A DNA stretch of 64,000 nucleotides from [Clostridium] celerecrescens 18A. GTDB lineage: Bacteria > Bacillota > Clostridia > Lachnospirales > Lachnospiraceae. A model generated the notes under the pieces. The model was not told the DNA's origin. It worked only from the letters and a program-made list of their open reading frames with translations, and did not search any database. Positions 1 to 14,530 of this stretch are shown here, one piece after another. The stretch covers positions 1,364,001-1,428,000 of the forward strand of contig NZ_PGET01000001.1 in NCBI RefSeq assembly GCF_002797975.1, written 5' to 3'. The translations under genes were made by a program, and so were the position numbers. Position 1 is the stretch's first letter. The number at the start of each line of letters is the position of its first letter.

Positions 1-476
1 GGGATAACTTCTTCACGCTTAATGTTCAATACATAAGCGAACTCCTCACAAAGTGTTTTTTCAGCATCTTTGAGAAAGCATTCGTCAGAATCCTGTAGTT
101 TCTTGTCTTTATTTGTGCTTTTTAGCTCTTGTTTACGACTACGCAAAGTTTTTATCATTTCTATAAGTTCGGAACGGTTACCATCTGCAAGAACCTGGCC
201 GTATAATTCTTTGCGCTTTCGATTATCCTTTATCCAATTGTGGTCTTTACTCGACAATTTCTTGACTAGAAAGAAAATTTCATCGGCAGAAAGAATGTGG
301 CGAATTTCAGTTTTTCTTCTGTCACTTATAGCTGAGACGTATAATGTCGAGGCAGTATGGTAAACAGGCTTGAGCACGTAATATGGGCGGATTTTTTCAT
401 CCATGCACATATCCTGTAATCCGGTAACCCTACAAACACCATGACTTCCGTATATGATGACATCACCTATGTTCAT
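1..476 (-). CDS. CarD/CdnL-like RNA polymerase-binding regulator, 3' end outside window
   Basis: Reading leftward from the ATG at 476-474, the protein begins MNIGDVIIYGSHGVCRVTGL, the usual opening of the CarD_CdnL_TRCF N-terminal domain. Members of this family bind the RNA polymerase beta subunit and modulate open-complex stability. The frame stays open for 158 codons to the window edge, so the C-terminus is missing. A ribosome site (AGAGGTGAA) lies just upstream of the ATG. It is a paralogue of the gene at 39305-39811, sharing the GD/ND...YGSHGVCRV and YYVLKP / YYTLKP motifs. It is transcribed away from the prophage module. Domain assignment is firm; target genes are unknown. Confidence 0.85.
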   Translation of the reverse strand, partial: MNIGDVIIYGSHGVCRVTGLQDMCMDEKIRPYYVLKPVYHTASTLYVSAISDRRKTEIRHILSADEIFFLVKKLSSKDHNWIKDNRKRKELYGQVLADGNRSELIEMIKTLRSRKQELKSTNKDKKLQDSDECFLKDAEKTLCEEFAYVLNIKREEVI

Positions 477-547
477 AATATTTCACCTCTTTCTAATAAA
501 ATAAAAAGTGCGGTTCACTAAAACTGGACTTACGTCCCTGTAAAGCA

Positions 548-580
548 AACCACACGTTCGATATTTATATTATAGCACAA
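548..580 (-). promoter_or_regulatory. Possible promoter with degenerate SOS-like box upstream of the CarD-like gene
   Basis: On the minus strand a TATAAT hexamer lies at 580-575, followed by GAACGTGTGGTT at 559-548. That resembles the Gram-positive LexA box (GAAC-N4-GTTY) with a mismatch in the second half. The -35 region is weak. The rest of 477-681 holds no ORF with a ribosome site. Confidence 0.3.
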
Positions 581-681
581 TTGTAGATGAAATGTATACG
601 GTAATTTACTCCAAAGTTCACGACTATATCATGGGCTTATCTATTTAGTATTTTCCGGAGTGCCGGGAGAAAGGTGGAATT

Positions 682-882
682 ATGAAAGTGTGGAATAGAA
701 AATATGATAATGATCACAAAGAACTAGAAGAGAAGATAATGGTAAAAGACCAATATAACAGAATGATGATGATAAGAGTTGCGAAGAAATACAATCTGGA
801 CGATCAGATCAATACAAGAATTGAATTAGAATATCACAGTAGTAAAAATTATGAAGTTTCTATATCGGATCTACTAAATTAA
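682..882 (+). CDS. Small hypothetical protein (66 aa)
   Basis: A short ORF starting MKVWNRKYDND, preceded by AAAGGTGG at good spacing, so translation is plausible. It is charged and soluble, with no signal peptide or recognised domain. Its stop codon lies inside the 15-bp repeat copy at 880-894 that recurs beside the tail-fibre cassettes, so its 3' end may be a recombination junction. Function unknown. Confidence 0.5.
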   Translation: MKVWNRKYDNDHKELEEKIMVKDQYNRMMMIRVAKKYNLDDQINTRIELEYHSSKNYEVSISDLLN

Positions 883-894
883 ATTGCTATTTTA
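879..894. repeat. Third copy of the tail-fibre inversion-site repeat
   Basis: TTAAATTGCTATTTTA. The 15-bp core TAAATTGCTATTTTA is identical to the copy at 14180-14194 and is the reverse complement of the copy at 13696-13710, which matches it over 16 bp. Read on the minus strand the site encodes Asn-Ser-Asn-Leu like the other two, then Ile and a stop. It lies outside the portal-to-tape-measure module, opposite in orientation to the copy at the module's right end. Confidence 0.6.
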
Positions 895-1009: not shown

Positions 1010-1141
1010 ATGGAAAAAAGATTTGAAAAGCCAAAGCAAAATAAAAAAGAATCTATCTGGAGAGATAAAAGTGCCAAACACCCAGAAGGCAAATCTTCCA
1101 GTGGGATGACTTTTAGGGTTAAGAAGGTGATAAGTGGATGA
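1010..1141 (+). CDS. Small basic phage protein (43 aa)
   Basis: ATG at 1010 with GGGTGA five bases upstream gives a 43-residue, lysine-rich peptide beginning MEKRFEKPKQNK. Its stop overlaps the portal start (ATGA at 1138-1141), which implies translational coupling. A longer reading from 941 has no ribosome site and would run through the hairpin at 967-996, so the internal start is preferred. No recognised domain. Confidence 0.45.
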   Translation: MEKRFEKPKQNKKESIWRDKSAKHPEGKSSSGMTFRVKKVISG

Positions 1142-2589
1142 ACAAACTCAGTTACATTGATATTTGCAAAGGTGCATTCGGGCGCAAGGTAGCATATACC
1201 AGTGTTTCGACCATTACTTCCGAAAATATTTTGAAAGTAGTTGGTAGGGCGGTTAGTATCCTGAATTATAATAGGCCGTTCATTCGTTATCTTCATGATT
1301 ACTATATGGGGGATCAGCCAATTTTGTACAGGGAAAAGGCAGTGCGCCCAGAAATTAATAATAAGACAGTGGAAAATCATGCTTTGGAAATAGTGCGTTT
1401 TAAGGCAGGTCAGACATACGGTGAGCCTATCCAATACGTGAGCCGAAAAAAAGATGAGAACATTAATAAAGCTGTTGATGCACTTAATGATTACATGAGG
1501 GACGCTCATAAGCAGGCAAGAGATATTGAACTTGGAACATGGCAAAGTTCGGTAGGTACTGCATATAAGGCCACCTTAAAAGCAGGCAAAAACAATCCGG
1601 TTCCCTTCTGGATACACATTCCCACGCCGTTAAATACAATTGTTGTATATTCGCAGGTAGATGGCCGGGATATGCTTTCAATTCAGCAGTTAAAAGACGA
1701 AAACGAGCAACAGTACTATCTTTGTTTTTCCGAAGATAAATACTTCATTATTAAGAATGGCCGGATTACCGATAACAATATTAATGGATTTGGAGGAATT
1801 CCTATAATAGAATATCCTAATAATCCGGATCGGTTATCTGACATTGAAATCGTAATTACAGCTTTGGATCAGATGAACAAAATGCAGTCTGATCGAATGA
1901 ATGGCATTGAGCAGTTTGTTCAGGCATTTATGCTTTTTAAAAACTGTGAGATTTCAAAAGATGAATTTATAGAAATGAGCCAGTTGGGTGCAATACAGGT
2001 TAAAGATTCGGGCCAAGCCAATAAGTCAGATGTGAAGCTTATGACTGCTGAACTTAATCAAGAGCAAACTCAGGTATCCAAAGACGATGTATATCGTCAA
2101 GTGCTTGTGGTTGAGGGAATGCCAGATCGTCAGCAAAATACCGGCGGTGATACCGGCCAAGCGGTTTATCTTAGAAATGGTTGGGATTTTGCAGAACAGA
2201 GGGCAAAACTCGATGAACCATTCATTATTGAGGCAGAAAAGAAACATTGTCAAATCGTGCTTAATATCATCAAGCAGACAACCAATGATGTTCCTTTGAC
2301 AGTAAGAGATTTTGATGTTAAAATCACTCGAAACTCAACTGACAATATGCTTGTTAAGGCACAGGCATTGGATTATTTATTGAAAAACAAAGTTAACCCA
2401 TTAATTGCTTTAACCACTTGCGGTCTGTTTGGAGACCCTGAAAAGGTATGGTTAATGAGTAAACCCTATATGGATACAATATTTAAAACGCAAGAACAAT
2501 TAGATGTTGAAGTAGAAAAAGGAAGAGCATATGAATTGCTAAAGAATCAATCGAATAATGCAGTAGCTAAAACAGGAGAAGCCGAATAG
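1138..2589 (+). CDS. Phage portal protein (SPP1 gp6-like)
   Basis: 483 residues, the usual size of SPP1 gp6-type portals, which form the dodecameric ring at the capsid vertex through which DNA is packaged and ejected. The N-terminal third carries the family signature around YYMGDQPILYREK and FKAGQTYGEPIQYV. The middle has PIIEYPNNPDRLSDIE before the stem helices, and the C-terminal part has GDTGQAVYLRNGWDF. The start overlaps the preceding small ORF by 4 bp and has AAGAAGGTG upstream. It heads the structural operon. The terminase genes that normally precede a portal gene are absent. Confidence 0.9.
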   Translation: MNKLSYIDICKGAFGRKVAYTSVSTITSENILKVVGRAVSILNYNRPFIRYLHDYYMGDQPILYREKAVRPEINNKTVENHALEIVRFKAGQTYGEPIQYVSRKKDENINKAVDALNDYMRDAHKQARDIELGTWQSSVGTAYKATLKAGKNNPVPFWIHIPTPLNTIVVYSQVDGRDMLSIQQLKDENEQQYYLCFSEDKYFIIKNGRITDNNINGFGGIPIIEYPNNPDRLSDIEIVITALDQMNKMQSDRMNGIEQFVQAFMLFKNCEISKDEFIEMSQLGAIQVKDSGQANKSDVKLMTAELNQEQTQVSKDDVYRQVLVVEGMPDRQQNTGGDTGQAVYLRNGWDFAEQRAKLDEPFIIEAEKKHCQIVLNIIKQTTNDVPLTVRDFDVKITRNSTDNMLVKAQALDYLLKNKVNPLIALTTCGLFGDPEKVWLMSKPYMDTIFKTQEQLDVEVEKGRAYELLKNQSNNAVAKTGEAE

Positions 2590-2610
2590 CTTTTCTTTTT
2601 TATTTTGGAG

Positions 2611-2669
2611 CTATCCGTCAAATAGCACAATCCGGCAGGTGCGACCTGCGTTACCAAAAGCGTGGATAG
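2611..2669 (+). promoter_or_regulatory. Structured RNA element between portal and scaffold genes
   Basis: CTATCC (2611-2616) pairs with GGATAG (2664-2669), closing a domain that contains the hairpin GCAGGT-GCG-ACCTGC (2635-2649). The outer stem ends just before the scaffold ribosome site (AGGAGG, 2671-2676), so it may tune scaffold translation or mark an mRNA processing point. Confidence 0.45.
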
Positions 2670-2684
2670 AAGGAGGAAATTATT

Positions 2685-3296
2685 ATGACCAGAGAACAGG
2701 CTAAGAAGAATTTGATAGCATTAGGCGTTGCTGAACCGACCGATGAGCAGATTACGGGTTATCTTAATCAGCACAATGGGGAAGTAAAAAAGGTTCAGGA
2801 AGACGCTGATAAATGGAAGAAAGAGGCTGAAAAGGCCGAAGAGTTACAGGCAAAACTTGACGGGATTGAACAGCAGAACCTTACAGATTTGGAAAAGGAA
2901 AAGAAAGCTAGGGAAGCGGCTGAAAAGAATGCCGCTGATTTACAGAAGCAGCTTACTCAATCTGCTGTAGAAGGTATCTTTGCAAAGGCGAATTTATCAG
3001 GAGAAGAATTTGCTGGAATGATGGGTGCTTTGTCTGCTTTAGATATGGAGGCGGCAAAGACCAGTGCTGAAGCCTTTGTGACTGGAATTTCCAAGCGTGA
3101 TGAAGCAAATAAGACACAATGGCAGAAAGAAATATTTGACAAAACACCGAATCCGGGTGCAGGAGATCCACCAGCAAATACAGATCCAGGCAAGAAGAGT
3201 GCTGCCGCCGAATACGCAAAGCAGTATTCCCAGAATAAAAACCCGCAGCCGGTTGCTACACCTATCGCCGGTGCGCAACCGGGAACATTAATTTAA
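2685..3296 (+). CDS. Phage scaffolding protein
   Basis: 203 residues between portal and capsid, the standard place for an internal scaffold. Residues about 30-95 are a charged coiled coil rich in Lys, Glu and Ala. The C-terminal third is low-complexity and rich in Pro, Gly and Ala (KTPNPGAGDPPANTDPGKK). This is the GP20-like minor structural / scaffold class, which guides procapsid assembly and leaves the mature head. Ribosome site AGGAGG eight bases upstream. No protease gene lies nearby. Confidence 0.8.
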   Translation: MTREQAKKNLIALGVAEPTDEQITGYLNQHNGEVKKVQEDADKWKKEAEKAEELQAKLDGIEQQNLTDLEKEKKAREAAEKNAADLQKQLTQSAVEGIFAKANLSGEEFAGMMGALSALDMEAAKTSAEAFVTGISKRDEANKTQWQKEIFDKTPNPGAGDPPANTDPGKKSAAAEYAKQYSQNKNPQPVATPIAGAQPGTLI

Positions 3297-3310
3297 GGAG
3301 GAATTGAGAT

Positions 3311-3655
3311 ATGGCTTATATGAAAGTTATTCAGGGAGAAACGCTCCCTAACTTTTTGGAAAGTGCCGTAGGATTGGTACAGAAAACAGAAATGGTTACT
3401 CAGGATAAAGCAGAAACTGTAGGCACCAAGAAACTGATTTATGGTGGCACAGCATTCCCGGCCAATGATGGGACAGCCACAGGTATTGTATTTGAAACTG
3501 TTGACATGACTGATGATGAGAAGCGGCCTGCCAGTATAATTAGGGCCGGCAGAATCTATGGGAATAGATTAAAGACCGCATTGTCAGCCGCAGCAAAAAC
3601 AGCTTTGGAAGCAAAAGGCTTTGTAATTCTTGATGCTCCCGAAGTTGAATTTTAA
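3311..3655 (+). CDS. Probable head decoration protein
   Basis: 114 residues, 14 bp after the scaffold gene and 14 bp before the capsid gene. It is a small beta-rich protein without charged tails. The segment ASIIRAGRIYGNRLKTALSA followed by a short Ala-rich helix and a strand (GFVILDAP) resembles small capsid-decorating proteins placed between scaffold and capsid genes. Its role is inferred mainly from position and size; the family match is weak. Ribosome site AAGGAGG upstream. Confidence 0.6.
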   Translation: MAYMKVIQGETLPNFLESAVGLVQKTEMVTQDKAETVGTKKLIYGGTAFPANDGTATGIVFETVDMTDDEKRPASIIRAGRIYGNRLKTALSAAAKTALEAKGFVILDAPEVEF

Positions 3656-3669
3656 TTGGAGGTGCTAAA

Positions 3670-4989
3670 ATGCCATTTAATGTATTGGACGCTATTAGCG
3701 TAGATGAAAGACTGAATTTTGCCCAGAACTTTGCAGTTGCAAGGCCGACTGTTCTGGATACCATTTTCCCGGATATTAAAACCCAGCATTTTAAAGCGGA
3801 GTATTATCGATTAATGCAGGGGCAGAACTTGCCGACACCGGCATTTGTACATGCCCTGGATACCGAAGCCCATATTGGTGTCCGCCCAACATTTGAGAAA
3901 GTATTGACTGAAAAACTTTTCATCAAAGAGAAAATTAATCAGTCAGAGCAGCTTCAGATGTATATTACTAACGGCGTACCTGATGATGACGGCTTAATCA
4001 AGTGGGTATTTGATGATATTGGCCGGCTGTCTGAAAGCGTTGTTACCAGAACCAAAATTGCTAAAGGTCAGTTAATGAGCCGTGGTATCATGAAAATCAA
4101 GGAGAACAACCTTGATATGGTTATTGATTTTGGAATCCCGGCAGAACAGAAGATTGTTTTTGGTGACTGGTCAGATCCGGAATATGATATCTTCTCTGAC
4201 TTTCAGCGAGCGGTAAAGATTCTGAAAGACCAGGGCAAGCTTGTCACTAAAGTGTTGACTTCTGATACACAGATCCAGCGTATGAGAAAAAATAAATCCA
4301 TTCAGACAGCTATTTATGGAGCAATCAATCTTGGTAAACTTGTTACCATGGCCGAGTTACGTTCAATTCTTCTGGAAGAATTCGGATTCTCCCTTGAATC
4401 TTGTGATGAAAGGTACGCATATGTAAAGGTTGACGGCTCCCGGGCAAACGGACGTTATTTTGATGAGGATAAAGTTACTTTTTATACGGCTAATGCGTCT
4501 GGTGGTGCTGGTGTTGGCCTATGGGGACCTACTCCTGAAGAGGCTGATTATGCAGCGTTCCAGGAAGCATTGCAGAAAATGTATGTAACTGTAACCATGT
4601 GGTCTACAAAAGACCCGGTGGCTAAATGGACTAAGGCTTCCGGTATGTTTATCCCGGTTCTTCCAGACCCATATGGAATTGTAATTGCCACCGTAGTGAC
4701 TGGTTCTGGAACACTTGGAACCCTGACGGTTAATTCTATTGCTGGTACGGCTACGGGTGATACCAAAGTAACTGCTTCCCCAGCAAAGGCAAGCGGAAAT
4801 TCCTATAAGTATAAAGTGGGCGATTCCGCGACCGCTGTAACCTATGGACAGAATGTCCAGACATGGAGTGCTTGGGACGGTAGTGCGGATATTACGGCAG
4901 CAACTGGCAAGGTGATTACCATTGTTGAATGTGACTCCAGCTACAAGGCAGTTAAGGCAGGTAATGCTACGGTAACGGCTAAATCATAA
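3670..4989 (+). CDS. Major capsid protein, lambda gpE-type fold with C-terminal extra domain
   Basis: 439 residues. Residues 1 to about 345 match the Phage_cap_E family (lambda gpE-like, HK97 fold), with features such as FPDIKTQHFKAEYYRLMQG near the N-terminus, DFGIPAEQKIVFGDW mid-way and a conserved MWSTKDPVAKW near the end of the core. Residues about 350-439 add a Gly/Thr/Ala-rich beta domain (VTGSGTLGTLTVNSIAGTA onward) that is not part of the fold and probably decorates the outside of the head. Ribosome site GGAGG before the ATG. Confidence 0.88.
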   Translation: MPFNVLDAISVDERLNFAQNFAVARPTVLDTIFPDIKTQHFKAEYYRLMQGQNLPTPAFVHALDTEAHIGVRPTFEKVLTEKLFIKEKINQSEQLQMYITNGVPDDDGLIKWVFDDIGRLSESVVTRTKIAKGQLMSRGIMKIKENNLDMVIDFGIPAEQKIVFGDWSDPEYDIFSDFQRAVKILKDQGKLVTKVLTSDTQIQRMRKNKSIQTAIYGAINLGKLVTMAELRSILLEEFGFSLESCDERYAYVKVDGSRANGRYFDEDKVTFYTANASGGAGVGLWGPTPEEADYAAFQEALQKMYVTVTMWSTKDPVAKWTKASGMFIPVLPDPYGIVIATVVTGSGTLGTLTVNSIAGTATGDTKVTASPAKASGNSYKYKVGDSATAVTYGQNVQTWSAWDGSADITAATGKVITIVECDSSYKAVKAGNATVTAKS

Positions 4990-5006
4990 GAAAGGCGGTG
5001 AGGTGA

Positions 5007-5327
5007 GTGGAAATGGAAATCTTGGCTGACATGAGTACATATCTTGGTGACGAAGTAAGCGAACAGGATAATCCGGTTCTGCTCATTCTCATCAATCGGG
5101 CAATTCGTAAGGTGAGTTCCAAGCGTTATCCATATGGGTATACTGACACACAAAAAGAAGCGGCGGTTTCAAAGTACCGGGATACGGTCTTTGACGCTGC
5201 TGTTTATTATTGGGCGAAGCAGGGAAGTGAGGGGCAGAGCTCGCATTCTGAAAACGGGATTTCCCGGGGATATCAGAATGAAGATGATCTTTATTTTGAT
5301 GTGGTGCCTATGGTAAAGACTTTATAA
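5007..5327 (+). CDS. Phage head-tail connector protein
   Basis: 106 residues beginning at a GTG (an ATG lies two codons later), with GGCGGTGAGG upstream. The helical protein (DMSTYLGDE...LILINRAIRKV...FDAAVYYWAKQGSEG) looks like the gp6/gp15-type connectors that sit on the portal and open the neck. The position directly after the capsid gene supports this. Only a short structured stretch separates it from the AT-rich gene that follows. Confidence 0.75.
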   Translation: MEMEILADMSTYLGDEVSEQDNPVLLILINRAIRKVSSKRYPYGYTDTQKEAAVSKYRDTVFDAAVYYWAKQGSEGQSSHSENGISRGYQNEDDLYFDVVPMVKTL

Positions 5328-5336
5328 CTTATATTT

Positions 5337-5437
5337 TAGACGGTGCGTGTCTGGCTAACCTCCCGGCCGGACGCAGGGTGTATGTCAGTAAATGGTGGTG
5401 GGCAGGCATACTTATTATGTCTGGGAGGAATACTTTA
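5337..5437 (+). other. Structured intergenic stretch before the inserted AT-rich gene
   Basis: Two hairpins can be drawn: GCGTGTCTGGC with GCCGGACGC, and GTATGTC with GGCATAC. They are followed by GGGAGG and a short TTG-initiated reading frame (5440-5500) that ends where the inserted gene's ribosome site begins. The leftover GGGAGG suggests the next phage gene once started here before the insertion. Confidence 0.35.
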
Positions 5438-5503
5438 ATTGAATAACTTCTTTTATTTGCTATCATTATGTTTTATAATGGTTGTGAAAGGAGTGTAGTT
5501 CTT

Positions 5504-6058
5504 ATGGAAAATACATTAAGTGAATTAATAATCAATCTATTAGATGGAAATTTTATTTCAACAATTCTTGGGGTTTTGGCTGGAGGAATAATTACTATAA
5601 AGATAAATGAATGGACTAATAAAGAAGTAATTAAAATGGAGATAAAAACTAACTTATGGAAGCAGCTTGCTGATTTATTAAATACGGCGGACGATAATAT
5701 TGTAGTATTTAAATCATTAGTACAACGTGAGGATATGCAGTTAATTGATTACATAATCTCTTTTCAAAAACTTATTGATGATTTAGTTAAAATTTTCAAA
5801 AAAGTTAATGATATGCTAATAAATTACGGATTCTTATGCATTGATGTACCTAATATGACTTTGGAACTAAAGGAAATTTTAATAAATATGCAAAATAAAG
5901 ATATTCAAAGTATTGAAGAAATAAAAGAAGCTCTAGAAATAGTGAGGAATTCTTTTATATTACTAGGTATTGGATTACAAAAAAGTTTACTGAAGGGTTT
6001 ATATAAGAAAAGTGACTATCGAAAATTATTAAAAATCGGAAAGAACGCATCAAATTAA
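5504..6058 (+). CDS. AT-rich inserted gene (moron) encoding a membrane-anchored helical protein
   Basis: An ATG at 5504 with AAAGGAG upstream gives 184 residues. A longer frame from 5468 would put the TATAAT-like promoter (5472-5477) inside the coding region, so the shorter start is chosen. One hydrophobic segment (STILGVLAGGIITIKI, residues about 18-33) is followed by a long helical region with Leu/Ile heptads. Codon use is much more A/T-rich than in the neighbouring structural genes, and the gene has its own terminator. That is the pattern of a moron: a cargo gene inserted in a phage late operon, often for superinfection exclusion or host benefit. Specific function not recognised. Confidence 0.7.
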   Translation: MENTLSELIINLLDGNFISTILGVLAGGIITIKINEWTNKEVIKMEIKTNLWKQLADLLNTADDNIVVFKSLVQREDMQLIDYIISFQKLIDDLVKIFKKVNDMLINYGFLCIDVPNMTLELKEILINMQNKDIQSIEEIKEALEIVRNSFILLGIGLQKSLLKGLYKKSDYRKLLKIGKNASN

Positions 6059-6070
6059 GCGTTCTTTTTT
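6041..6070 (+). terminator. Intrinsic terminator of the inserted gene
   Basis: AAGAACGC (6041-6048) and GCGTTCTT (6059-6066) form a perfect stem ending in a T-run. The stem overlaps the last codons of the inserted gene. Confidence 0.85.
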
Positions 6071-6092
6071 ATTTCGAATTAGGAGTTGACAT

Positions 6093-6527
6093 GTGAGAGG
6101 GTTGAAGCGTAACCAGAAATCATTATACTATCAGCTTTATTCAGAGCATATCCCGGTTTATGAAACCGATTTGGACGGCAATATCATCTATGATCCAGTG
6201 ACTGGAGAACCACTTCGTACTGGTGATTATACTGTAGGGTATGCGGACCCGGTGGAGTTCAGGGCGAGGGTGTCTGCAGCCAGAGGAGAAGCCTCGACTG
6301 ACCCATTCGGTGTGAATACCGAGTACGACAAGACAATAAGTGATTGCAGCATGAAGCTGCCGATTGATGAGTTGTCCGTACTGTATGTAGATAAGAAACC
6401 GGAATTTGACTCTGATGGTAATCTAATGAATAAACCGGACTACAAAGTTGTCAAAGTGGCAGGAGATATCAATTCTACGCTCTATGCTATTAAACAATTG
6501 CCAGATGGAGGTGCGAAGAATGGTTAA
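6093..6527 (+). CDS. Phage head closure / neck protein (family not certain)
   Basis: 144 residues from a GTG start with AGGAG upstream. It has a Tyr/Asp-rich N-terminal part (VYETDLDGNIIYDPVTGEP) and a beta-rich core, with MKLPIDELSVLYVDKKP in the second half. It lies where head-closure or stopper proteins are normally encoded, and similar proteins recur at this place in clostridial siphophages. The next start overlaps its last codons by 8 bp, so translation is coupled. Confidence 0.6.
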   Translation: MRGLKRNQKSLYYQLYSEHIPVYETDLDGNIIYDPVTGEPLRTGDYTVGYADPVEFRARVSAARGEASTDPFGVNTEYDKTISDCSMKLPIDELSVLYVDKKPEFDSDGNLMNKPDYKVVKVAGDINSTLYAIKQLPDGGAKNG

Positions 6528-6873
6528 GTACAAAAAGAAACCAGTGGTATTTGAAGCCTTTAGATTTCAGCTTGATGATGTAATGCCAGACTGGTTCAAT
6601 GAAAAGCGTATTAAAAATGAAATTATTACTCATGAAGATGGAACGTGCGATATAAAGACGCTTGAAGGGACTATGAGAGCCGACAAAGGCGATTATGTAA
6701 TTCTGGGCGTAAAAGGCGAGATATATCCCTGTAAGCCGGATATATTCGAAGCAACCTATGAAAAAGTTTGGCCTTTATCTTCATTACTAGAAAATCAAAA
6801 AACAGATGTTGGTTCTATGACTGATGAAGAATGGAAAAAATATCTTAATCGCTTAAAATGTCCAGGAGAGTAA
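6520..6873 (+). CDS. Conserved phage protein of unknown function (117 aa)
   Basis: The start is placed at the ATG at 6520 (MVKYKKKPVVFEAFRF), behind GGAGGTG. The longer frame from 6448 lacks a ribosome site and overlaps the previous gene heavily. The pattern KKPVVFEAFRF ... KGDYVILGVKGEIYPCKPDIFEATYEKV is a common small phage protein, often a lone accessory gene. Here it sits inside the neck region. It overlaps the next gene by 16 bp. Role unknown. Confidence 0.65.
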   Translation: MVKYKKKPVVFEAFRFQLDDVMPDWFNEKRIKNEIITHEDGTCDIKTLEGTMRADKGDYVILGVKGEIYPCKPDIFEATYEKVWPLSSLLENQKTDVGSMTDEEWKKYLNRLKCPGE

Positions 6874-7388
6874 TTCGAGGAAACTTTTCCTCAAAAGGAA
6901 TCCAGGACATCATAAACCAACTTAAGCAGTATAAAGCAGACTTGTACCGAAAAGCTGAATTGCTATGTCAACGTTTAGCGGAAGCCGGACAGACAGTTGC
7001 CCTGCAAAGCATTAGTGAATCCCCCTTAGGTAAAACAATTACCCTCTGGGTGGAAATGGAGCCGCGGAAAGACGGTTGCAAGGCCATTCTGGTTGCTACC
7101 GGGCAAATAAAGTCTAATGACTACGGCACCATTAACACCTTGCTTCTGGTTGAGTTTGGAGCCGGCGCCTTCTATAATCCGTCAGATAATCCGAAAGCCG
7201 GAGAGATGGGATATGGAATCGGAACATTCCCCGGACAGATCCATGCCTTTGAAGATGGGTGGTACTATTGGGGCGAAGATGAGAAGTGGCACTACACCCA
7301 TGGTACAAAAGCCACAATGCCAATGTATAATGCTTCTTCGGCTATACGGACGCGAGTGGCGGCCATTGCAAAGGAGGTTTTCCAGTAA
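6858..7388 (+). CDS. HK97 gp10-like head-tail joining protein
   Basis: 176 residues. The N-terminal helical region (IQDIINQLKQYKADLYRKAE) and the sequence LLLVEFGAGAFYN followed by GTFPGQIHAFEDGWYYW match the gp10-like tail-component / minor capsid family, which completes the head-tail joint. The stop codon shares a base with the following ATG, a tight operon arrangement. Assignment is by family pattern and position. Confidence 0.7.
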   Translation: MSRRVIRGNFSSKGIQDIINQLKQYKADLYRKAELLCQRLAEAGQTVALQSISESPLGKTITLWVEMEPRKDGCKAILVATGQIKSNDYGTINTLLLVEFGAGAFYNPSDNPKAGEMGYGIGTFPGQIHAFEDGWYYWGEDEKWHYTHGTKATMPMYNASSAIRTRVAAIAKEVFQ

Positions 7389-7771
7389 TGCTTGATATTT
7401 CCTCTTTGGTTTATACCCGGTTGGTGAATGATGAAACACTGAAAAAATATATCAAAGGAAGCGGCACCACTAGGAACGATACACCTTCGGCTTTTCCCTA
7501 CCTTTATTTCAAAAGCCTGGGCCAGCCGACAACAAGCAGTTCTCTGCAGAACAAGCAGTGTGCCATATCTGCTGATTTTGAAATTATTGTATATGATTCC
7601 GGATCTTTCAGCAAGGCAAAACAGTTAATTTTTCTTGCGGCAGATATAATGACAGAATTAGGGTTCACATTAAAATTTGGTCCTCTTGAAGTGGATCGTT
7701 CTAATACAACAGAAGCATATCGCTGGATTGCAAGGTTTCATAGGACCTATTGCGAGGGTGATTTGATATAA
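7388..7771 (+). CDS. Tail terminator / completion protein
   Basis: 127 residues immediately before the major tail protein, the place of tail-terminator proteins of the gpU/gp17 type. The sequence SAFPYLYFKSLGQPTTSSS and the final ARFHRTYCEGDLI fit a compact alpha/beta fold. Assigned by size and synteny rather than a strong motif. Confidence 0.6.
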   Translation: MLDISSLVYTRLVNDETLKKYIKGSGTTRNDTPSAFPYLYFKSLGQPTTSSSLQNKQCAISADFEIIVYDSGSFSKAKQLIFLAADIMTELGFTLKFGPLEVDRSNTTEAYRWIARFHRTYCEGDLI

Positions 7772-7791
7772 AAATAAGAGCAATTAACTTT

Positions 7792-7821
7792 GAGCTTCGT
7801 CTAATGGTGAAGTTCTTTTTT
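7792..7821 (+). terminator. Hairpin and T-run before the major tail protein gene
   Basis: GAGCTTC (7792-7798) pairs with GAAGTTC (7809-7815), including one G-U pair, followed by six T residues. It sits inside the structural operon, so it probably attenuates rather than ends transcription. Confidence 0.55.
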
Positions 7822-7844
7822 ATGCAAAAAGGAGGATATGACCT

Positions 7845-8336
7845 ATGGCAAAAGCTGTAGATTTATCAACTGCCGGTATCCATGTCGGATATGGGATCGA
7901 AACAACAACTGGAACAAAGCCCACAACCTTTACTGATCTGCCGAATCCCAAAAGTATTCCTGACTTTAATCCAGAAGTAGGTAGCTATGATGTAACATCT
8001 TTGAATGATACTATCTGGAAACGTTATATTGATGGGCTGAAAGATCCGGGAGGAGCCCTTGCAATCACGTTTGGTATGTCACAAATGTTCCTGGATATGT
8101 GGGAAGCTCTTTGTGATGAGTATGATACGGCTAAAATATCAAATAAACGTATGTGGCTGGAATTTTATCACCCGAGACTAACAAAGGCTTTTTACTTTAC
8201 TTGCGTGCCAGCAAGATTAGGTTGGGCGGCTTCCGACGTTGACAATGCTTGGGATACCAGTATATCTGTTACACCAACCGGAGAAATCGGGTGGGATGAT
8301 CCTATTGTTCCAACTGAACCATCGGAAGAACCTTAA
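7845..8336 (+). CDS. Major tail (tube) protein
   Basis: 163 residues, with AAAGGAGG upstream. The N-terminus (STAGIHVGYGIETTTGTKP) and a beta-rich core with SISVTPTGEIGWDDPI are typical of siphophage tail-tube subunits, which polymerise along the tape measure. It ends in a short acidic tail (VPTEPSEEP). The tail-assembly chaperone and tape-measure genes that follow confirm the assignment. Confidence 0.85.
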   Translation: MAKAVDLSTAGIHVGYGIETTTGTKPTTFTDLPNPKSIPDFNPEVGSYDVTSLNDTIWKRYIDGLKDPGGALAITFGMSQMFLDMWEALCDEYDTAKISNKRMWLEFYHPRLTKAFYFTCVPARLGWAASDVDNAWDTSISVTPTGEIGWDDPIVPTEPSEEP

Positions 8337-8361
8337 TAAAAAGTATGGGAGGTATTAAAAT

Positions 8362-8859
8362 ATGAGGATTTTAACGATTGGCGGTAAGGACTATAATGTG
8401 GAATTTTCCTTTGAAGCTGCAGAGTATAAAGATTGTGTGGACAGTATATTCAAAGTTATTTCTGGCAGTTACATTATGAAGAATGGGCCAACTGATGAGA
8501 ATGAAAAGATATCTGTTGCAACGGCCATATTGAATGGTACATCTGATATGGTTTCAGACATTCCCAAAATCGCTGTTACGGCTCTTTATGCCGGCTTGCT
8601 GGAAAACAATCCGGTGGAAAACGAACAGGCAGCCAAAGCTCTATTTAAGCAGTTTGTCAAGGAGAAACCAGACGATGAGCGTGCTTCATTCTGGGGAATG
8701 TATGATTTTCTGAGAGACTGCATGGAAGAAGATGGTTTTTTCAAACTCACCGGAATGGACAAGGTAATTGCTCAGATGAGCGAAGCGGCGGAAGAACAGA
8801 AGTCCAAATCCGGGAAGATACCACAGGATCACAAAAGGAAATCAACTTCCACAAAATAA
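8362..8859 (+). CDS. Tail assembly chaperone, upstream frame (gpG-like)
   Basis: 165 residues between tail tube and tape measure. It starts MRILTIGGKDYNVEFSFEAA, as in many Gram-positive gpG homologues, which bind the tape measure and recruit tail-tube subunits. The downstream frame (8874-9218) is open well back into this gene's 3' end, so a -1 frameshift would yield a G-T fusion. The C-terminal tail in this frame (KSGKIPQDHKRKSTSTK) looks like the non-conserved end seen just after such slip sites. Confidence 0.75.
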   Translation: MRILTIGGKDYNVEFSFEAAEYKDCVDSIFKVISGSYIMKNGPTDENEKISVATAILNGTSDMVSDIPKIAVTALYAGLLENNPVENEQAAKALFKQFVKEKPDDERASFWGMYDFLRDCMEEDGFFKLTGMDKVIAQMSEAAEEQKSKSGKIPQDHKRKSTSTK

Positions 8860-8873
8860 TCTGGGAACAGTAT

Positions 8874-9218
8874 TTGCCAGAAGCATTAAATATGGGGGTT
8901 CCGTATGATTTATTCTGGCGGTTAAATCCTCGGAAGCTTCTGCCATTTGTAGAGGCATATCGAAGAAAGCAGCAACAACGTAGTGACGAAATGTGGCTCA
9001 TGGGCCAGTATGTTGCTTCAGCTTTGGACGCTACTGTATGTAATGCAATGCCATTTATTAAAAGAAAGTGGAGAGGTAAGTATTTTGAAGAACCAATACG
9101 TGTAACACCAAAGACAGAAGAGGAAAAGCGGTCAGAAAGTGAAAAAGCTTTACAAGGGTTCATCTTTGCTGCTGGAACAATGGAAAATGATATGAAACGT
9201 AAAAAGAAAGGCGAGTGA
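8874..9218 (+). CDS. Tail assembly chaperone, frameshift-expressed T domain
   Basis: In the -1 frame relative to 8362-8859. No ribosome site precedes the first possible start (TTG at 8874), and the same frame remains open upstream, reading ...INFHKIIWEQYLPEALN across the end of the G frame. That is how gpT is made in lambda-like phages, by slippage on the G message. A candidate slip stretch is CACAAAAGG at 8830-8838; the exact heptamer is uncertain. The domain is basic and ends in a Lys-rich tail. Confidence 0.65.
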   Translation: MPEALNMGVPYDLFWRLNPRKLLPFVEAYRRKQQQRSDEMWLMGQYVASALDATVCNAMPFIKRKWRGKYFEEPIRVTPKTEEEKRSESEKALQGFIFAAGTMENDMKRKKKGE

Positions 9219-9246
9219 TAGACGAAAATTCACTCGCCTTTTTTTG
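9208..9246 (+). terminator. Strong hairpin with T-run before the tape measure gene
   Basis: AAGGCGAGTGA (9208-9218) and TCACTCGCCTT (9230-9240) are perfect complements followed by seven T residues. It ends the chaperone gene inside an otherwise continuous late operon. Confidence 0.8.
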
Positions 9247-9269
9247 TATGTGCAAAGGGCGGTGAAACC

Positions 9270-12200
9270 ATGTCAGATGTTATTGATGATTTAAAAGTCC
9301 AAATAGACGCCAGTACAAATAGTGCTGATGCCAAAATTGATAAATTCATACAAAAGATGATGTCTCTGCAATCTGCCATATCCGGGATTGAAATGTCCGG
9401 TGCAAGTCAGGTGGCCTCTGGCATAAATCAGATTGCTTCATCTATCCAAAGCTTTAATGAACGGACTAAAACTGCGGATTTTTCCAGAATAACCGTAGGG
9501 CTTAATAAACTGTCGGCGGTTGACGTTCAGGGAGTAAGCAATACCGCTCACGCCATGGAAAGCTTTGCAAATAGTATAAATGGAATTGGTAATCTCAAAT
9601 TTGATACGGAAACTCTGAATAATATTGCAAATTCCATTTCAAAGCTGGGACGTGCTTCGGTTACGGAGGCAACACAGAATCTGGAATTTTTAAAAACCAG
9701 TATGGCAGATTTTGTTTCCGGAATGAACAATGTGGGAAGTCTGAATTTTAATCCGGATTCTCTATATAAACTGGTGTCCTCAATAAGTAGGTTGGGTGGT
9801 ATTAATGCCACACAGGCGGTAAAGAACCTTCCGCAGATTTCAACCTCCCTGCACAGTTTTGTTTCCAGTATGAATTCTGTTGGCGGTGTCACGTTTAATA
9901 TTGAGGGACTTAATTCTCTTGTGAACAATATTAGCCACCTTGGTGGGGCAAAAGCTACACAGGCCACAGCAAACCTTAAGCCAATAAAGGACCAGCTTTT
10001 AAGGTTTGTGAGTGGTCTGAACGGGATAGGTGCGCTCAATTTTGATACAAGTGGGTTGGAAAATCTCGTTTCTTCTATAACAAAGCTGGGTGGAAAATCT
10101 GCAAGCAATGCAATTCCTAATATTCAGAACCTTGGAATATCCTTAAGAAATCTGATGGCCACTCTGTCCAGTGCCCCACGGGTCAGCAATAATCTTATTC
10201 AAATAACAAATGCTCTGGCAAAATTGGCTTCCAGTGGTTCCAAAGTGTCAAGTGCCAGCGTTGCAATGAGTAATGGTTTGAAATCGTACACAGGTCGGAC
10301 GGGAAAAGCCATGTTAGGAATAAAGGGGCTTGCAGCGTCTATTGGAATGTTCTACGCCAGATGGTGGGCGGTAATTCGTGGAATGAAAGGTCTATGGAAA
10401 GCAACGGAAGCTTCTATGGACTATATTGAGACATTGAATTATTTTGACGCCGCCTGGGGGCAAGTAGCAGATGCCGGGGTAAAAAACTGGGAGAAGTCTG
10501 GCTATGAATCAGCAGAAGCCTATGCCAAATCATTCAGCAAACGTGCACAGGAATTAACGGGGAAAATGTCCGGCTTCATGGCAGATGAGAATGGGAATTT
10601 AAAATCTACCGGTGCGGTTAGTCTTGGTATTGATCCAGAAAGGCTTATGAATTATCAGGCTACTTTTGGTCAGATGGCTTCCTCTATGGGAGTAGCCTCT
10701 GAAACGGCCCTGCAGCTATCTAACGCTTTAACTATGATAGGTGCAGATCTTGCTTCCGTAAAGAACTTGAATTTCAAAGATGTATGGGAGGATATGGCTT
10801 CCGGCATGGTCGGCATGAGTCGGACTCTAGATAAATACGGCGTAAATATCCGCAATGTAAATTTGCAAGAAAAATTAAGTGAACTTGGTATTATGGCAAA
10901 GGTTTCGGCTCTAAATCAGCAGGACAAGGCCTTATTACGTGCCATTATCTTATTGGATTCCACTCGGTACGCCTGGGGAGATTTGGCTAGCACTTTAGAC
11001 GCGCCTTCAAACCAGTTACGACTTCTACAATCAAATTTTGCGAACCTTGCAAGGACGATAGGGAATTTATTTCTGCCTATTGTTGCCAAGGTTCTTCCTT
11101 ATATTAATGCTCTGGTAATAGCATTACAGCGGTTATTCTCATGGGTCGGCGGACTTTTGGGTATTAAGGTAGGGGATTTCAGCTCTTCTATTGGTTCTGC
11201 CGCCACAGACTTTGGAGATATGGAAGATGCAGCAGATGGGATTGCAGATAGCACAGGAGATGCAGCGAAAAATACTAAAAAGATGGCAGACAATTTACAA
11301 GGTTTTGATAAATTAAATGTCGTAAGCTCAAAAGATTCTTCTGGTGGTAAAGGTGGTAGTGGCGGCGTCGATGGAGGTTTATTAGATGAAGCTTTTTTGA
11401 ACTCTTTGTCCGAATATCAGAAAGTTTGGGAAGCTGCATTTGCAAATGTGGAAAATAGTGCACAGGCAATGGCTGATAAAATTGTAAATGCATTTAAGGT
11501 CGGTGATTATTACGGTATAGGAAAATACATAGGAGATGGCTTAACAGGGGCTTTAGAAAGTATAAGCTGGTCTGCAGTTTATTCTATTGCGGGTGGATTC
11601 GGTACGGGATTGGCAGAATTTTTAAATAGCCTTATTTCGCCTGAATTGTTTGGGGCAGTAGGTAAGACGATTGCAGGGGCTTTAAATACTGCTCTGTATA
11701 CCGCGCTTGCTTTTGGCATAGCTTTTGACTGGACGAATCTGGGATATTCTAGTGCCAATGGAATTAACAATTTTTTCAATACATTTGACTTTGCTTCTGC
11801 CGGAGCGGCGGTTAACGTCTGGGCTAAAGGTCTGTTAGACGCATTAATAGAGGCACTGGATAATATAAACTGGTCTCTAATAGGAACTAAAATTGGAACA
11901 TTCCTTGAATCTATAGATTTCATTGAAATAGGTGGAAAAGTAGGGGAAGCAATATGGAAAGCCATAAATGCAGGTATAGAGCTTTGGGGGAGTTCTTTTA
12001 AGACAGCACCTGTTGAAACGACAATGCTTACAGCATTTGGTCTGCTGAAATTCACAGGACTTGGAAAGTTGTTGTCTGGGAAAATAATGCGATCACTGGC
12101 TAAAGGATTGTCTTTCTCTGGAATTGGAACATTACTAGTAAAAGCATTTCCTAGAAGCACTATTATAACCACGATAACTACAACTATGGCTCAAACTGGT

Positions 12201-13637
12201 GCTTCTTTACCATCAGTATTGTTTGGTGTGATATGGGTACCTATACAGACTTTTTTCACTACAACATTACCTGGATTAATAGGTGGAGCAATAAGTGGTT
12301 TAGGTGCAAGCATTGCCGGTGGAATAGCAGCATTGGCCGCAGCTCTTGGAATAAGCGTAACTGCCGCAGCTGCACTTGTGGTAGGTGTAGTTGTTGCAGC
12401 TATAGCCACAGTAGTATATGCTTTTACACATTGGGATGAAATTAAAGAATTTTGGACAAAGAAAGTTCCTGAATGGTGGAACACTTCCGTGTTGCCTTTT
12501 TTTGAATCTATTCCAGATAAACTCTCTGCAGTGTGGGATAAGGTAAAGTCTACAGCTACTTCTTCATGGGATAAATTGATTCAATATCTGACTGGCATAC
12601 CGGGGAAAATAGGAAATATTGTTACAGACATCGCTGATTGGTTTAATGAATTACCTGGGAAGATTGGATATGCTTTAGGGTATGCTCTGGGAACCATTAC
12701 AAAATGGGGCTTAGAAGTAGCAGAATATATGGCTAAGAAAATCCCCGAAATAATAGCTTCTGTGGTAAAATGGTTTTCTGAAATGCCTGGGAAGATATAT
12801 ACTGGAATTTCTACCTTTATAACAAATGTTGCAACCTGGGGAACAGAAATTTACAATGCATTTAACCAAAAAGTATCTGAAATAATTGTCGGCACTGTGA
12901 AATGGTTCTCTGAAATGCCCGGGAAGATATACGATACAATAATAAAAATCAAAGAGAAAATATCAACATGGGCCACGAATACCGTATCATTTTTTAAAAC
13001 AGAGGTTCCTACTATTGTAGATAAGGTGATAGAATTCTTTGGAGAATTACCGAAGAAAATGGTTACTATAGGCGAAAATGTCATTAAAGGTCTATGGGAA
13101 GGTATTACGAATTTGACGGACTGGCTGGGAACTGGTATCGCCTCTTTTACTAAAGGCGTAATTGATGGGTTTAAAAAAGGCTTTGATGAACATTCTCCCT
13201 CGAAAAAAGCGTTCCAGATTGGTGATTATTTTACCATCGGAATGATGAATGGTATTGAGGATAAATTTGGTGTAATTTATTCTAAAGTAGATTCTTTTGC
13301 TGACAAACTAACAGATTATAATATTTCTCTGCCATCAATAGATACCAACGTACAAGTCAGCAGGGAATTCTTTGATATGGTAGATACAAAAGCCTCTGTT
13401 TCCTACGATACACCTTCTTATGATTTTAAGGCCGGCATATCCGCAGAATTGCATGCAGCGTTATCTGGAATTATTGATTATGAGAAGATGGCAAAGACTA
13501 TGGCACCGATTGTAGCTGATGCGTTAGAGCATGCAGATATAAAAGCAAAGATTGGTCAGCAAGAAGTTTGGAAAAGTACAAAAGATAGTTGGAATCAGGA
13601 TTATAGAAAGTTAAAAAAAGCACCAGTACCAATTTGA
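9270..13637 (+). CDS. Tape measure protein
   Basis: 1455 residues, the longest gene in the window, as expected for the protein that sets tail length and enters the cell envelope during DNA ejection. Residues about 70-300 contain about five copies of a roughly 48-residue repeat (versions of L-x-N-x-x-x-x-I-x-x-L-G-G and FVSGMN-x-x-G). A central region has transmembrane-like Ala/Gly/Val segments (about 1000-1060). The C-terminal third repeats KWFSEMPGKIY-type motifs. Ribosome site GGGCGGTG upstream. It is complete and ends at a terminator, but no distal tail gene follows. Confidence 0.93.
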   Translation: MSDVIDDLKVQIDASTNSADAKIDKFIQKMMSLQSAISGIEMSGASQVASGINQIASSIQSFNERTKTADFSRITVGLNKLSAVDVQGVSNTAHAMESFANSINGIGNLKFDTETLNNIANSISKLGRASVTEATQNLEFLKTSMADFVSGMNNVGSLNFNPDSLYKLVSSISRLGGINATQAVKNLPQISTSLHSFVSSMNSVGGVTFNIEGLNSLVNNISHLGGAKATQATANLKPIKDQLLRFVSGLNGIGALNFDTSGLENLVSSITKLGGKSASNAIPNIQNLGISLRNLMATLSSAPRVSNNLIQITNALAKLASSGSKVSSASVAMSNGLKSYTGRTGKAMLGIKGLAASIGMFYARWWAVIRGMKGLWKATEASMDYIETLNYFDAAWGQVADAGVKNWEKSGYESAEAYAKSFSKRAQELTGKMSGFMADENGNLKSTGAVSLGIDPERLMNYQATFGQMASSMGVASETALQLSNALTMIGADLASVKNLNFKDVWEDMASGMVGMSRTLDKYGVNIRNVNLQEKLSELGIMAKVSALNQQDKALLRAIILLDSTRYAWGDLASTLDAPSNQLRLLQSNFANLARTIGNLFLPIVAKVLPYINALVIALQRLFSWVGGLLGIKVGDFSSSIGSAATDFGDMEDAADGIADSTGDAAKNTKKMADNLQGFDKLNVVSSKDSSGGKGGSGGVDGGLLDEAFLNSLSEYQKVWEAAFANVENSAQAMADKIVNAFKVGDYYGIGKYIGDGLTGALESISWSAVYSIAGGFGTGLAEFLNSLISPELFGAVGKTIAGALNTALYTALAFGIAFDWTNLGYSSANGINNFFNTFDFASAGAAVNVWAKGLLDALIEALDNINWSLIGTKIGTFLESIDFIEIGGKVGEAIWKAINAGIELWGSSFKTAPVETTMLTAFGLLKFTGLGKLLSGKIMRSLAKGLSFSGIGTLLVKAFPRSTIITTITTTMAQTGASLPSVLFGVIWVPIQTFFTTTLPGLIGGAISGLGASIAGGIAALAAALGISVTAAAALVVGVVVAAIATVVYAFTHWDEIKEFWTKKVPEWWNTSVLPFFESIPDKLSAVWDKVKSTATSSWDKLIQYLTGIPGKIGNIVTDIADWFNELPGKIGYALGYALGTITKWGLEVAEYMAKKIPEIIASVVKWFSEMPGKIYTGISTFITNVATWGTEIYNAFNQKVSEIIVGTVKWFSEMPGKIYDTIIKIKEKISTWATNTVSFFKTEVPTIVDKVIEFFGELPKKMVTIGENVIKGLWEGITNLTDWLGTGIASFTKGVIDGFKKGFDEHSPSKKAFQIGDYFTIGMMNGIEDKFGVIYSKVDSFADKLTDYNISLPSIDTNVQVSREFFDMVDTKASVSYDTPSYDFKAGISAELHAALSGIIDYEKMAKTMAPIVADALEHADIKAKIGQQEVWKSTKDSWNQDYRKLKKAPVPI

Positions 13638-13695: not shown

Positions 13696-13710
13696 TAAAA
13701 TAGCAATTTA
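13696..13710. repeat. Left inverted repeat of the tail-fibre cassette segment
   Basis: TAAAATAGCAATTTA, the exact reverse complement of 14180-14194 and of 880-894. In the rightward frame the last twelve bases encode Asn-Ser-Asn-Leu, the first residues of the forward cassette. This is the arrangement of a recombination crossover site placed within a coding sequence. Confidence 0.7.
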
Positions 13711-13980
13711 ACCGCTTTAGGCGATAACCTTGGTGGCAAGAAAACCATTTCCGGGGTCACTGAGGTAACCCTTGATGCCAATGGATACGGCCTAGTTAAT
13801 TTTGGCTATGTGTTTGCCAACACCTACACTAATGTTATTATTAGTAACAATACGGGGTTGTATTTCCAGTACGAAATCTACCCTGGAGGTTTTGGCGTGT
13901 GGGTATTTGATGCAAATGGAACAAAGCTAATTAATACGAAAATCTGGGTCACATGGATAGCTCATGGGACGGCAAAATGA
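13699..13980 (+). pseudogene. C-terminal tail-fibre cassette (forward)
   Basis: An open frame without a start codon, bounded upstream by an in-frame TAA in the repeat. It encodes 93 residues beginning NSNLTALGDNLGGKK and ending WVTWIAHGTAK. The Gly/Asn/Thr-rich beta pattern (TISGVTEVTLDANGYGLVNF) is that of the receptor-binding tip of phage tail fibres. No constant N-terminal fibre gene is attached, so the cassette is silent here. With the reverse cassette it forms a convergent pair inside a 15-bp inverted repeat, as in shufflon-type fibre switching. Confidence 0.65.
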
Positions 13981-14008
13981 TCATTTAATATTTTTTGACA
14001 AGTGATTC

Positions 14009-14191
14009 TTAAACCAATTTGAAGGCTCCCACATAAATGTCATCTATAAATAATTGAAGTACTCCTGCATCATCCCATCTAATAGATGCCCTGGAGGTTA
14101 TTCGATAATTGAGAGCATTTGTTGTATTATTCAATACAGTATTCGTGTTTTCCAATGCACTAGCATTTGCTTTTAATGCTAAATTGCTATT
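14009..14191 (-). pseudogene. C-terminal tail-fibre cassette (reverse, alternative end)
   Basis: On the minus strand the frame reads NSNLALKANASALENTNT... and ends DDIYVGAFKLV, 60 residues. It begins with the same four codons as the forward cassette, inside the right-hand copy of the inverted repeat. An N-terminal helical, coiled-coil-like stretch leads to a small beta domain (RASIRWDDAGVLQLFIDD), a usual fibre-tip layout. No start codon or ribosome site is present. It would be expressed only if inversion joined it to a fibre N-terminus. Confidence 0.6.
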
Positions 14192-14194
14192 TTA
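14180..14194. repeat. Right inverted repeat of the tail-fibre cassette segment
   Basis: TAAATTGCTATTTTA, the perfect inverted copy of 13696-13710. The two enclose a 499-bp segment carrying one cassette end on each strand. Confidence 0.7.
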
Positions 14195-14306: not shown

Positions 14307-14333
14307 ATGTGAAAAAACTGTGAATGAATGGTG

Positions 14334-14530
14334 TTAGCTTTTTATAAACGATTGTAGACGATTTTTACAACTATAACCGATTATAAATGAATATTCTGTT
14401 GTAGTGTCTGTCGAAGATTCTGCAGTTATCAACGTTTCGTCTTTCCCAGAGGTTGTTTTACCTCTACAAGCGGATACGCTGATGATATAGCACATAATGC
14501 TGCTACAAATAACTTATTTTTCATATTCAT
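14334..14530 (-). pseudogene. Frameshifted small lipoprotein
   Basis: From ATG at 14530 the frame gives MNMKNKLFVAALCAISSA, a signal peptide. One base out of frame the sequence continues VSACRGKTTSGKDETLIT and then a Thr/Ser/Glu-rich stretch to a stop at 14334-14336. VSAC is a lipobox, so a single-base indel has split a short lipoprotein gene of a type common in Lachnospiraceae. No function is recognised beyond surface anchoring. Confidence 0.55.

Follow-up and report, generated by a model that had tools for sequence, protein, structure and literature searches.

A two-tip cassette in a [Clostridium] celerecrescens prophage as a probable silent store of a dispersed tail-fibre shufflon

The question raised by positions 13696-14194 of the 64,000-nucleotide stretch of [Clostridium] celerecrescens 18A analysed here (the window; positions 1364001-1428000 of a genome that forms one contig of 5.27 Mb) is why two reading frames without start codons face each other there between exact inverted repeats. 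An earlier interpretation made from the letters alone (the sequence-only reading) proposed an invertible tail-fibre cassette pair of the shufflon or Mu/P1 type. The present analysis supports that idea, with the enzyme class and the layout corrected. The segment, called cassette D, is most probably (we put the probability at about 0.73) a silent storage cassette of a fibre-tip switching system, namely a dispersed shufflon that exchanges single tips by means of a tyrosine recombinase. The shufflon half of the earlier proposal is thus retained and the Mu/P1 half given up, because the likely enzyme is a tyrosine recombinase.

Cassette D is composed of the following elements, in window coordinates.

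13696-13710, + strand: left boundary site, with the core AATAGCAATTT at 13699-13709; exact inverted repeat with 14180-14194
13699-13980, + strand: tip D+, 93 amino acids, no start codon, a stop directly upstream, TGA at 13978-13980
13975-13986, no strand: central palindrome AAATGATCATTT between D+ and D- (genome 1377975), the proposed second crossover site
14009-14191, - strand: tip D-, 60 amino acids, no start codon, stop at 14009-14011
14180-14194, - strand: right boundary site, the exact 15-bp inverted repeat partner

The arms of 15 nucleotides each are 100% complementary and spaced by 469 nucleotides, as the sequence-only reading had seen; among 500 first-order Markov simulations of the 3 kb around it, a single one contained any exact 15-bp inverted repeat spaced by 300-700 bp. 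The two frames converge from opposite strands and each begins, as also reported then, directly after a stop with the same Asn-Ser-Asn-Leu (NSNL) codons inside the repeat, that of the + strand reading stop-NSNLTALGDNLGG... over 93 amino acids and that of the - strand stop-NSNLALKANAS... over 60. The sequence-only reading overlooked a third exact copy of the repeat at 880-894 on the - strand.

The 11-bp core AATAGCAATTT has nine exact copies in the 115 kb scanned, all inside the prophage that contains cassette D, and those outside the window lie at genome 1340387, 1340985, 1355588, 1356193, 1362726, and 1363196. The nine sites make up four inward-facing pairs, i.e., two-tip cassettes, and one lone site. 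Besides cassette D, these are:

Genome 1340384-1340999: cassette A, an inward-facing site pair
Genome 1355585-1356207: cassette B, an inward-facing site pair at the 3' end of the fibre gene
Genome 1362723-1363210: cassette C, an inward-facing site pair
Window 880-894, - strand: lone boundary site (the 15-mer's third exact copy), forming the right edge of locus C, ahead of the portal gene

The cassettes are thereby spread across about 38 kb in four places, at 1340.4, 1355.6, 1362.7, and 1377.7 kb. The search for a fibre gene with the same junction, suggested in the sequence-only reading, found one for a collagen-like fibre of 350 amino acids at genome 1354892-1355944, outside the window and 22 kb upstream of cassette D; such a gene is also present in related phages. 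Its frame crosses the site as L-N-S-N-L and is open for 236 codons upstream and 118 after. Eight of the nine sites carry a tip, all of them open for 53-118 codons from the site, while the ninth reads only 5 codons. The frame upstream of all six tips of cassettes A, C, and D is open for just 0-19 codons, so that these cassettes lack a constant part and are read as silent, although translation of A+ could in principle begin at a TTG three codons before the tip. Cassette D, accordingly placed among them, looks like a silent store whose expression site would lie elsewhere. The sequence-only reading had left open whether it is stranded or has distant partners; the partners are indeed distant (fibre 22 kb, enzyme 47 kb), and the cassette is not stranded, because fibre and enzyme lie in the same prophage.

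The arrangement recurs in related bacteria. The 14-mer TAAATAGCAATTTA gave 61 matches in 25 congeneric genomes, with at least one in 22 of the 25, compared to 2 for the reversed control; judged by this count, the site/tip system is widespread among members of the genus. In more distant genomes the 14-mer is at chance level: of 395 non-congeneric ones, drawn as 397 less G000 and G022, 14 contain it and 27 the reversed control, and one of the 14 (G297) has an inverted pair 628 bp apart. At 91 of 109 distinct core sites the tip frame is open for at least 50 codons, which the other two frames achieve at 0 and 2 sites; the median open lengths are 90, 3, and 5 codons, respectively. This count begins 15 bases past the core start, since stop codons within the site would otherwise close the other frames. 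Where both ends of a pair have a recognised core and each tip reaches at least 45 codons, the cores are equal in 39 of 39 cases, including pairs with the rare variants AGCG (two) and ATCA (one) of genome G010. A loosened core search returned 39 pairs with equal cores and 9 with unlike ones; of the latter, five have a known site at just one of their ends, and the other four have no known core. Tyrosine recombinases need equal overlap regions, and the equal cores within cassettes fit this rule. As a separate observation, in G013:C35 (1093-1114) and G012:C7 (944981-945002) a tip begins with two copies of the site at a distance of 21 bp, which duplicates seven residues of the junction.

The center of the cassettes carries a second conserved motif. 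The 12-bp palindrome AAATGATCATTT has the arms of the boundary site (AAAT/ATTT) around a symmetric GATC core, and is found at the tip junction exactly in 18 of 33 cassettes, with at most one mismatch in 27, and with at most two in 32. Mononucleotide shuffles did as well as the first 27 cassettes in no more than 3 of 100 cases, and as well as the five at two mismatches in 7-13 of 100. In our own 140 kb there are three exact copies, every one a cassette center, and 2.49 Mb of partly overlapping sequence contains 26 copies, versus 0-4 for six other palindromes with the same arms. The 112 distinct tips yield 29 homologous pairs, in 22 of which the partner of each tip in its cassette is known. By the same threshold these partners are non-homologous in 21 of the 22, that is, in all 21 informative pairs (14 tip families, 23% to 94% identity), the remaining one being a cassette counted twice through two overlapping sites. 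When cassette B is compared to L184, the silent half is 90% identical from center to site and the other half is unrelated, with identity resuming 1 bp after the palindrome start. From these comparisons we infer that the palindrome is a second crossover site.

The palindrome might instead be a shared bidirectional stop, TGATCA providing TGA on both strands and D+ and C+ ending in it, or some other conserved signal, the cassette halves being re-assorted by slow ordinary homologous recombination. We regard this explanation as rather unlikely. D- stops 22 nucleotides ahead of the palindrome, and A+, A-, and C- end in a TAA sharing only one or two outer bases with it; the motif is nonetheless preserved. 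The sharing of arms with the boundary sites also speaks against a mere stop, as does the position of the breaks: of five cassette pairs compared, four lose identity within 5 bp of the palindrome, and the fifth does so 39 bp before reaching it. For one of those four, G003:C16/G009, identity at the far end stops 35 bp before the site.

It should be mentioned here that in the pre-portal locus of another relative (G021:C16 16238-17486) an unrelated open frame replaces the tip beyond the central palindrome.

In the storage-cassette mechanism, each cassette has two start-less tips facing one another, with inward-facing asymmetric sites TAAAT-AGCA-ATTTA at its edges and the palindrome AAAT-GATC-ATTT between the tips. 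At the asymmetric sites, a tyrosine recombinase of the phage would, in living cells, invert the cassette in place at the fibre gene and so switch the expressed tip. Exchange between the sites of the fibre locus and the stores, or those of another phage in the cell, would import new tips, and recombination at the palindromic center would let single tips re-pair. In its most specific form, for which we would offer slightly less than even odds, one recombinase uses two cores on the same arms, the directional AGCA tying a tip to the fibre and the non-directional GATC re-pairing tips, such that single tips would be interchangeable across stores and co-resident phages.

The best candidate for the switching enzyme, and a likely one, is a phage tyrosine recombinase of 345 amino acids (genome 1330113-1331147; PF00589, E 3e-29) encoded in the same prophage, 47 kb from cassette D. 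It is nearest by sequence to XerC-, XerA-, and XerD-type chains. The R-K-H-R-H-Y catalytic set of tyrosine recombinases is invariant in 9 of 9 aligned homologues. Homologues of 85-89% identity occur in G007, G010 (on a different contig), and G021, and a broken one in G024. A serine invertase was considered and rejected, the nearest PF00239 match in the genome lying at 1515091, 137 kb away; in 10 relatives no PF00239 match lies within about 30 kb of a cassette, as positions compared by eye indicate. The search for a serine or tyrosine invertase that the sequence-only reading had advised therefore returned the second kind, within the prophage, and not the first near the cassettes.

Alternatively, the switching could be performed by a Xer/RecV-like tyrosine recombinase of the host or by the phage integrase, an assignment that we consider doubtful. 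Near the cassettes of the phages in G009 and G012 there is no gene closely homologous to that of the phage enzyme, all 25 genomes match this enzyme at E <=1e-15 (most of the matches being 26-29% identical and of Xer-like length), and the available text of PMC6109161 proposes trans-acting enzymes for a phage inversion. The phage enzyme is favored by its homologues on 10 of 31 fibre contigs of IMG/VR, in a separate scan that was not exhaustive, and by a 29% relative in G020 that sits between two cassettes. The phage moreover has a separate integrase-family match next to its attachment (att) repeat, at genome 1302916, from which the 345-amino acid protein is distinct, and no serine recombinase lies near our cassettes. 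The phage recombinase may act in trans where no close homologue is nearby, or a host enzyme may serve there.

Comparison of loci shows conserved flanks around changed contents. Locus C is 96.6% identical to G024 up to the last base of the left site; inside, only a 20-bp match at a site is found, and identity of 81% returns from 15 bp beyond the window site at 880, whose flank resembles the right edge of the pre-portal cassette in G007 and G024. Locus A and L127 are 91% identical to the last base of the left site, in a flank that holds an unmatched stretch of about 160 bp, and 94% identical from 4 bp inside the right site. The constant part of the fibre is 81-91% identical to L181-L185, and this identity ends within 3 bp of the site in 4 of the 5 and 35 bp past it in L185; of the tips in the expressed position there, only that of L183 matches ours, distantly (23%). 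The cassette D locus is empty in G024 and G021:C16.

Signs of recent exchange are also seen in assemblies, although these are not read counts. Contigs C2 and C6 of the draft G011 end in the same 85 bp, and an identical end of this length is common to C8 and C13. The shared ends begin 1-2 bp before the core, with unlike sequences upstream that are open frames in C8 and C13, which implies that the same tip is present at two loci or in two phages of one cell. The contig of L044 ends in 62 bp that repeat, in inverted orientation, the beginning of a tip inside it. That the cassettes are relics of transposition or deletion, no longer switched and similar at flanks and junctions through old events, is very unlikely: the damaged-looking tips of G024 (23 and 35 codons), its broken recombinase, and the cassette half of G021:C16 exchanged for unrelated sequence with an open frame fit such decay, but all eight of our own tips are open, near-identical tips are present on other predicted fibres, draft contigs end at shared tips, and boundary cores are equal within cassettes, the rare ones of G010 included.

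The stored tips do have relatives on predicted fibres. Relatives of D+ follow NSNL in P0002 (83% over 82 amino acids), whose N-terminus matches tail-fibre families, and in P0011 (68% over 94), whose N-terminal part matches our fibre; an absence of cassette homologues among phage fibres, which would have spoken against the sequence-only reading, was thus not what was found. The silent tip A- is 99% identical over 100 amino acids to the tip of P0004, the N-terminal part of which likewise matches our fibre. D- has relatives in P0123 (98%), P0124 (90%), and P0125 (88%), the last carrying it fused after NSNL. The fibre-tip-like character ascribed to both frames is accordingly supported for D+, and more weakly for D-.

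In domain searches, none of 10 tips had a Pfam match above the cut-off, D+ coming to Beta_helix at 0.007, below it. Three of the 10 had PHROG matches: a tail-fibre family for C- (0.006), two families of unknown function for D+ (0.03-0.04), and another such family for one G020 tip (9e-7). The AlphaFold model of D+ has a mean predicted local distance difference test score of 78.7; its closest matches, weak ones, are the C-terminal domain of tail fibre gp53 and further phage fibre/lectin domains. The model of B+ was poor (65.6) and was set aside. D+, D-, and the fibre had no match among INPHARED phages, and the sole match of D+ in IMG/VR is a record of the same or a very near strain. A 196-amino acid tip in G009 (111640-112504) resembles two tandem tips, the second homologous to a G003:C16 tip.

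Several results weigh against the storage-cassette reading. No cassette was found in both orientations within one phage, in assembled sequences as opposed to reads; the inverted state of our fibre cassette was not found in one scan of IMG/VR; and exchange between store and fibre was not seen within any one lineage. The center of the expressed cassette B has two mismatches, the level that 7-13 of 100 shuffles also attain. A distance of 9 kb separates the recombinase gene from the closest cassette, and G021:C8, like G009 and G012, has a fibre cassette with no close recombinase homologue found nearby, the best match being 33% over 101 amino acids in G021:C8 and only a 27% Xer-like one in the whole of G012. 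The N-terminus of P0125 and the upstream frames of G011 C8 and C13 matched no fibre family.

The surroundings of cassette D contain the following further features, in window coordinates unless stated otherwise.

1138-2589, + strand: portal protein of the same prophage (PF05133, E 1e-71), in a similar position in relatives
9270-13637, + strand: tape measure protein (PHROG tape-measure families), upstream neighbor of cassette D
14308-14335, no strand: attR, the 28-bp direct repeat TGTGAAAAAACTGTGAATGAATGGTGTT (genome 1378308), other copy at genome 1302681
Genome 1363211-1364895 (L009 19211 to window 895; window 3-882 in part), no strand: insert of ~1.67 kb between the like-oriented sites at genome 1363196 and window 880

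The integrase-family match (PF00589) adjoins the att copy at 1302681, and by these sequence features the 28-bp repeats and the match mark a predicted prophage of ~75.6 kb, in which cassette D is the last feature found ahead of attR. Its position right after the tape measure was correctly noted by the sequence-only reading; the expectation that fibres belong there was not borne out, this phage's fibre gene lying elsewhere. The prophage has the unusual order terminase, tail, collagen fibres, amidase, LexA-like gene, and then portal, capsid, and tape measure (L009 1200-18291, window 1138-13637). Most of it recurs in G007, G010, G021:C16, and G024, with no LexA match in G007, no terminase match in G010, and some regions incomplete at contig ends; the order is therefore normal for the phage group and reflects no local rearrangement. 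A strain-specific displacement of the portal-to-tape-measure block by the sites was considered and rejected, since the portal follows the amidase in four relatives too.

The ~1.67-kb insert contains a CarD-like gene, a 66-amino acid open reading frame, and, just upstream of the window, a gene that by eye is cold-shock-like. It has no similar DNA in the relatives compared and may be cargo taken up at a site. The major capsid protein (PF03864, window 3670-4989) has at its C-terminus an S-layer domain of the SbsC type (PF18316), which may decorate the surface. A STAND/AAA-like NTPase gene (L009 3359-4927; weak Pfam matches), possibly a defence gene, lies between a sigma-like regulator and the tail genes and, apart from the same-strain record, has no match among the relatives compared.

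If the storage-cassette reading is true, one phage of this group can have a repertoire of eight receptor-binding tips, kept at a distance from the fibre gene and exchanged singly, and host-range evolution is partly a programmed combinatorial exchange rather than slow mutation. A literature search that covered titles and the starts of abstracts, with most subscription papers outside its reach, found no description of this system.

Among known systems, the comparison is made with what the available texts report. The plasmid R64 shufflon (Rci, sfx; PMC11852207) likewise employs a tyrosine recombinase and several segments, of which inversion picks a variant, but it serves pilus genes, is contiguous, and has asymmetric sfx arms; in the present sites it is the core that is asymmetric, between symmetric inner arms. 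In Mu Gin, P1 Cin, and p15B Min, inversion also joins alternative fibre C-termini to a constant part (PMC6109161 in part); these are, however, serine recombinases, a class that has no member near our cassettes, acting on a single or contiguous invertible region.

The closest relative by mechanism, as far as its published account was available, is the Rin shufflon of Bifidobacterium prophages (PMC6109161), which has an Eggerthella relative with some segments called H-type lectins (PMC8778435). Both Rin and the present system are phage-borne, with a tyrosine recombinase separate from the integrase (its action on our sites being putative) and one constant receptor-binding N-terminus, interrupted here in frame by the crossover site. 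In both, short repeats, the 11-bp rix in Rin, start the alternative C-terminal segments of the receptor-binding protein. The site sequences differ, and the available part of PMC6109161 describes neither a palindromic center nor a dispersed store for Rin. In Rin the segments adjoin one another in tandem orientation and rin flanks them, whereas the variable segments here are two-tip cassettes, dispersed rather than contiguous with the constant gene and with the recombinase, which is located at 1330.1 kb. New in the present system are the dispersal of the cassettes, their conserved flanks with differing contents, and the palindrome at the tip junction of 32 of 33 cassettes.
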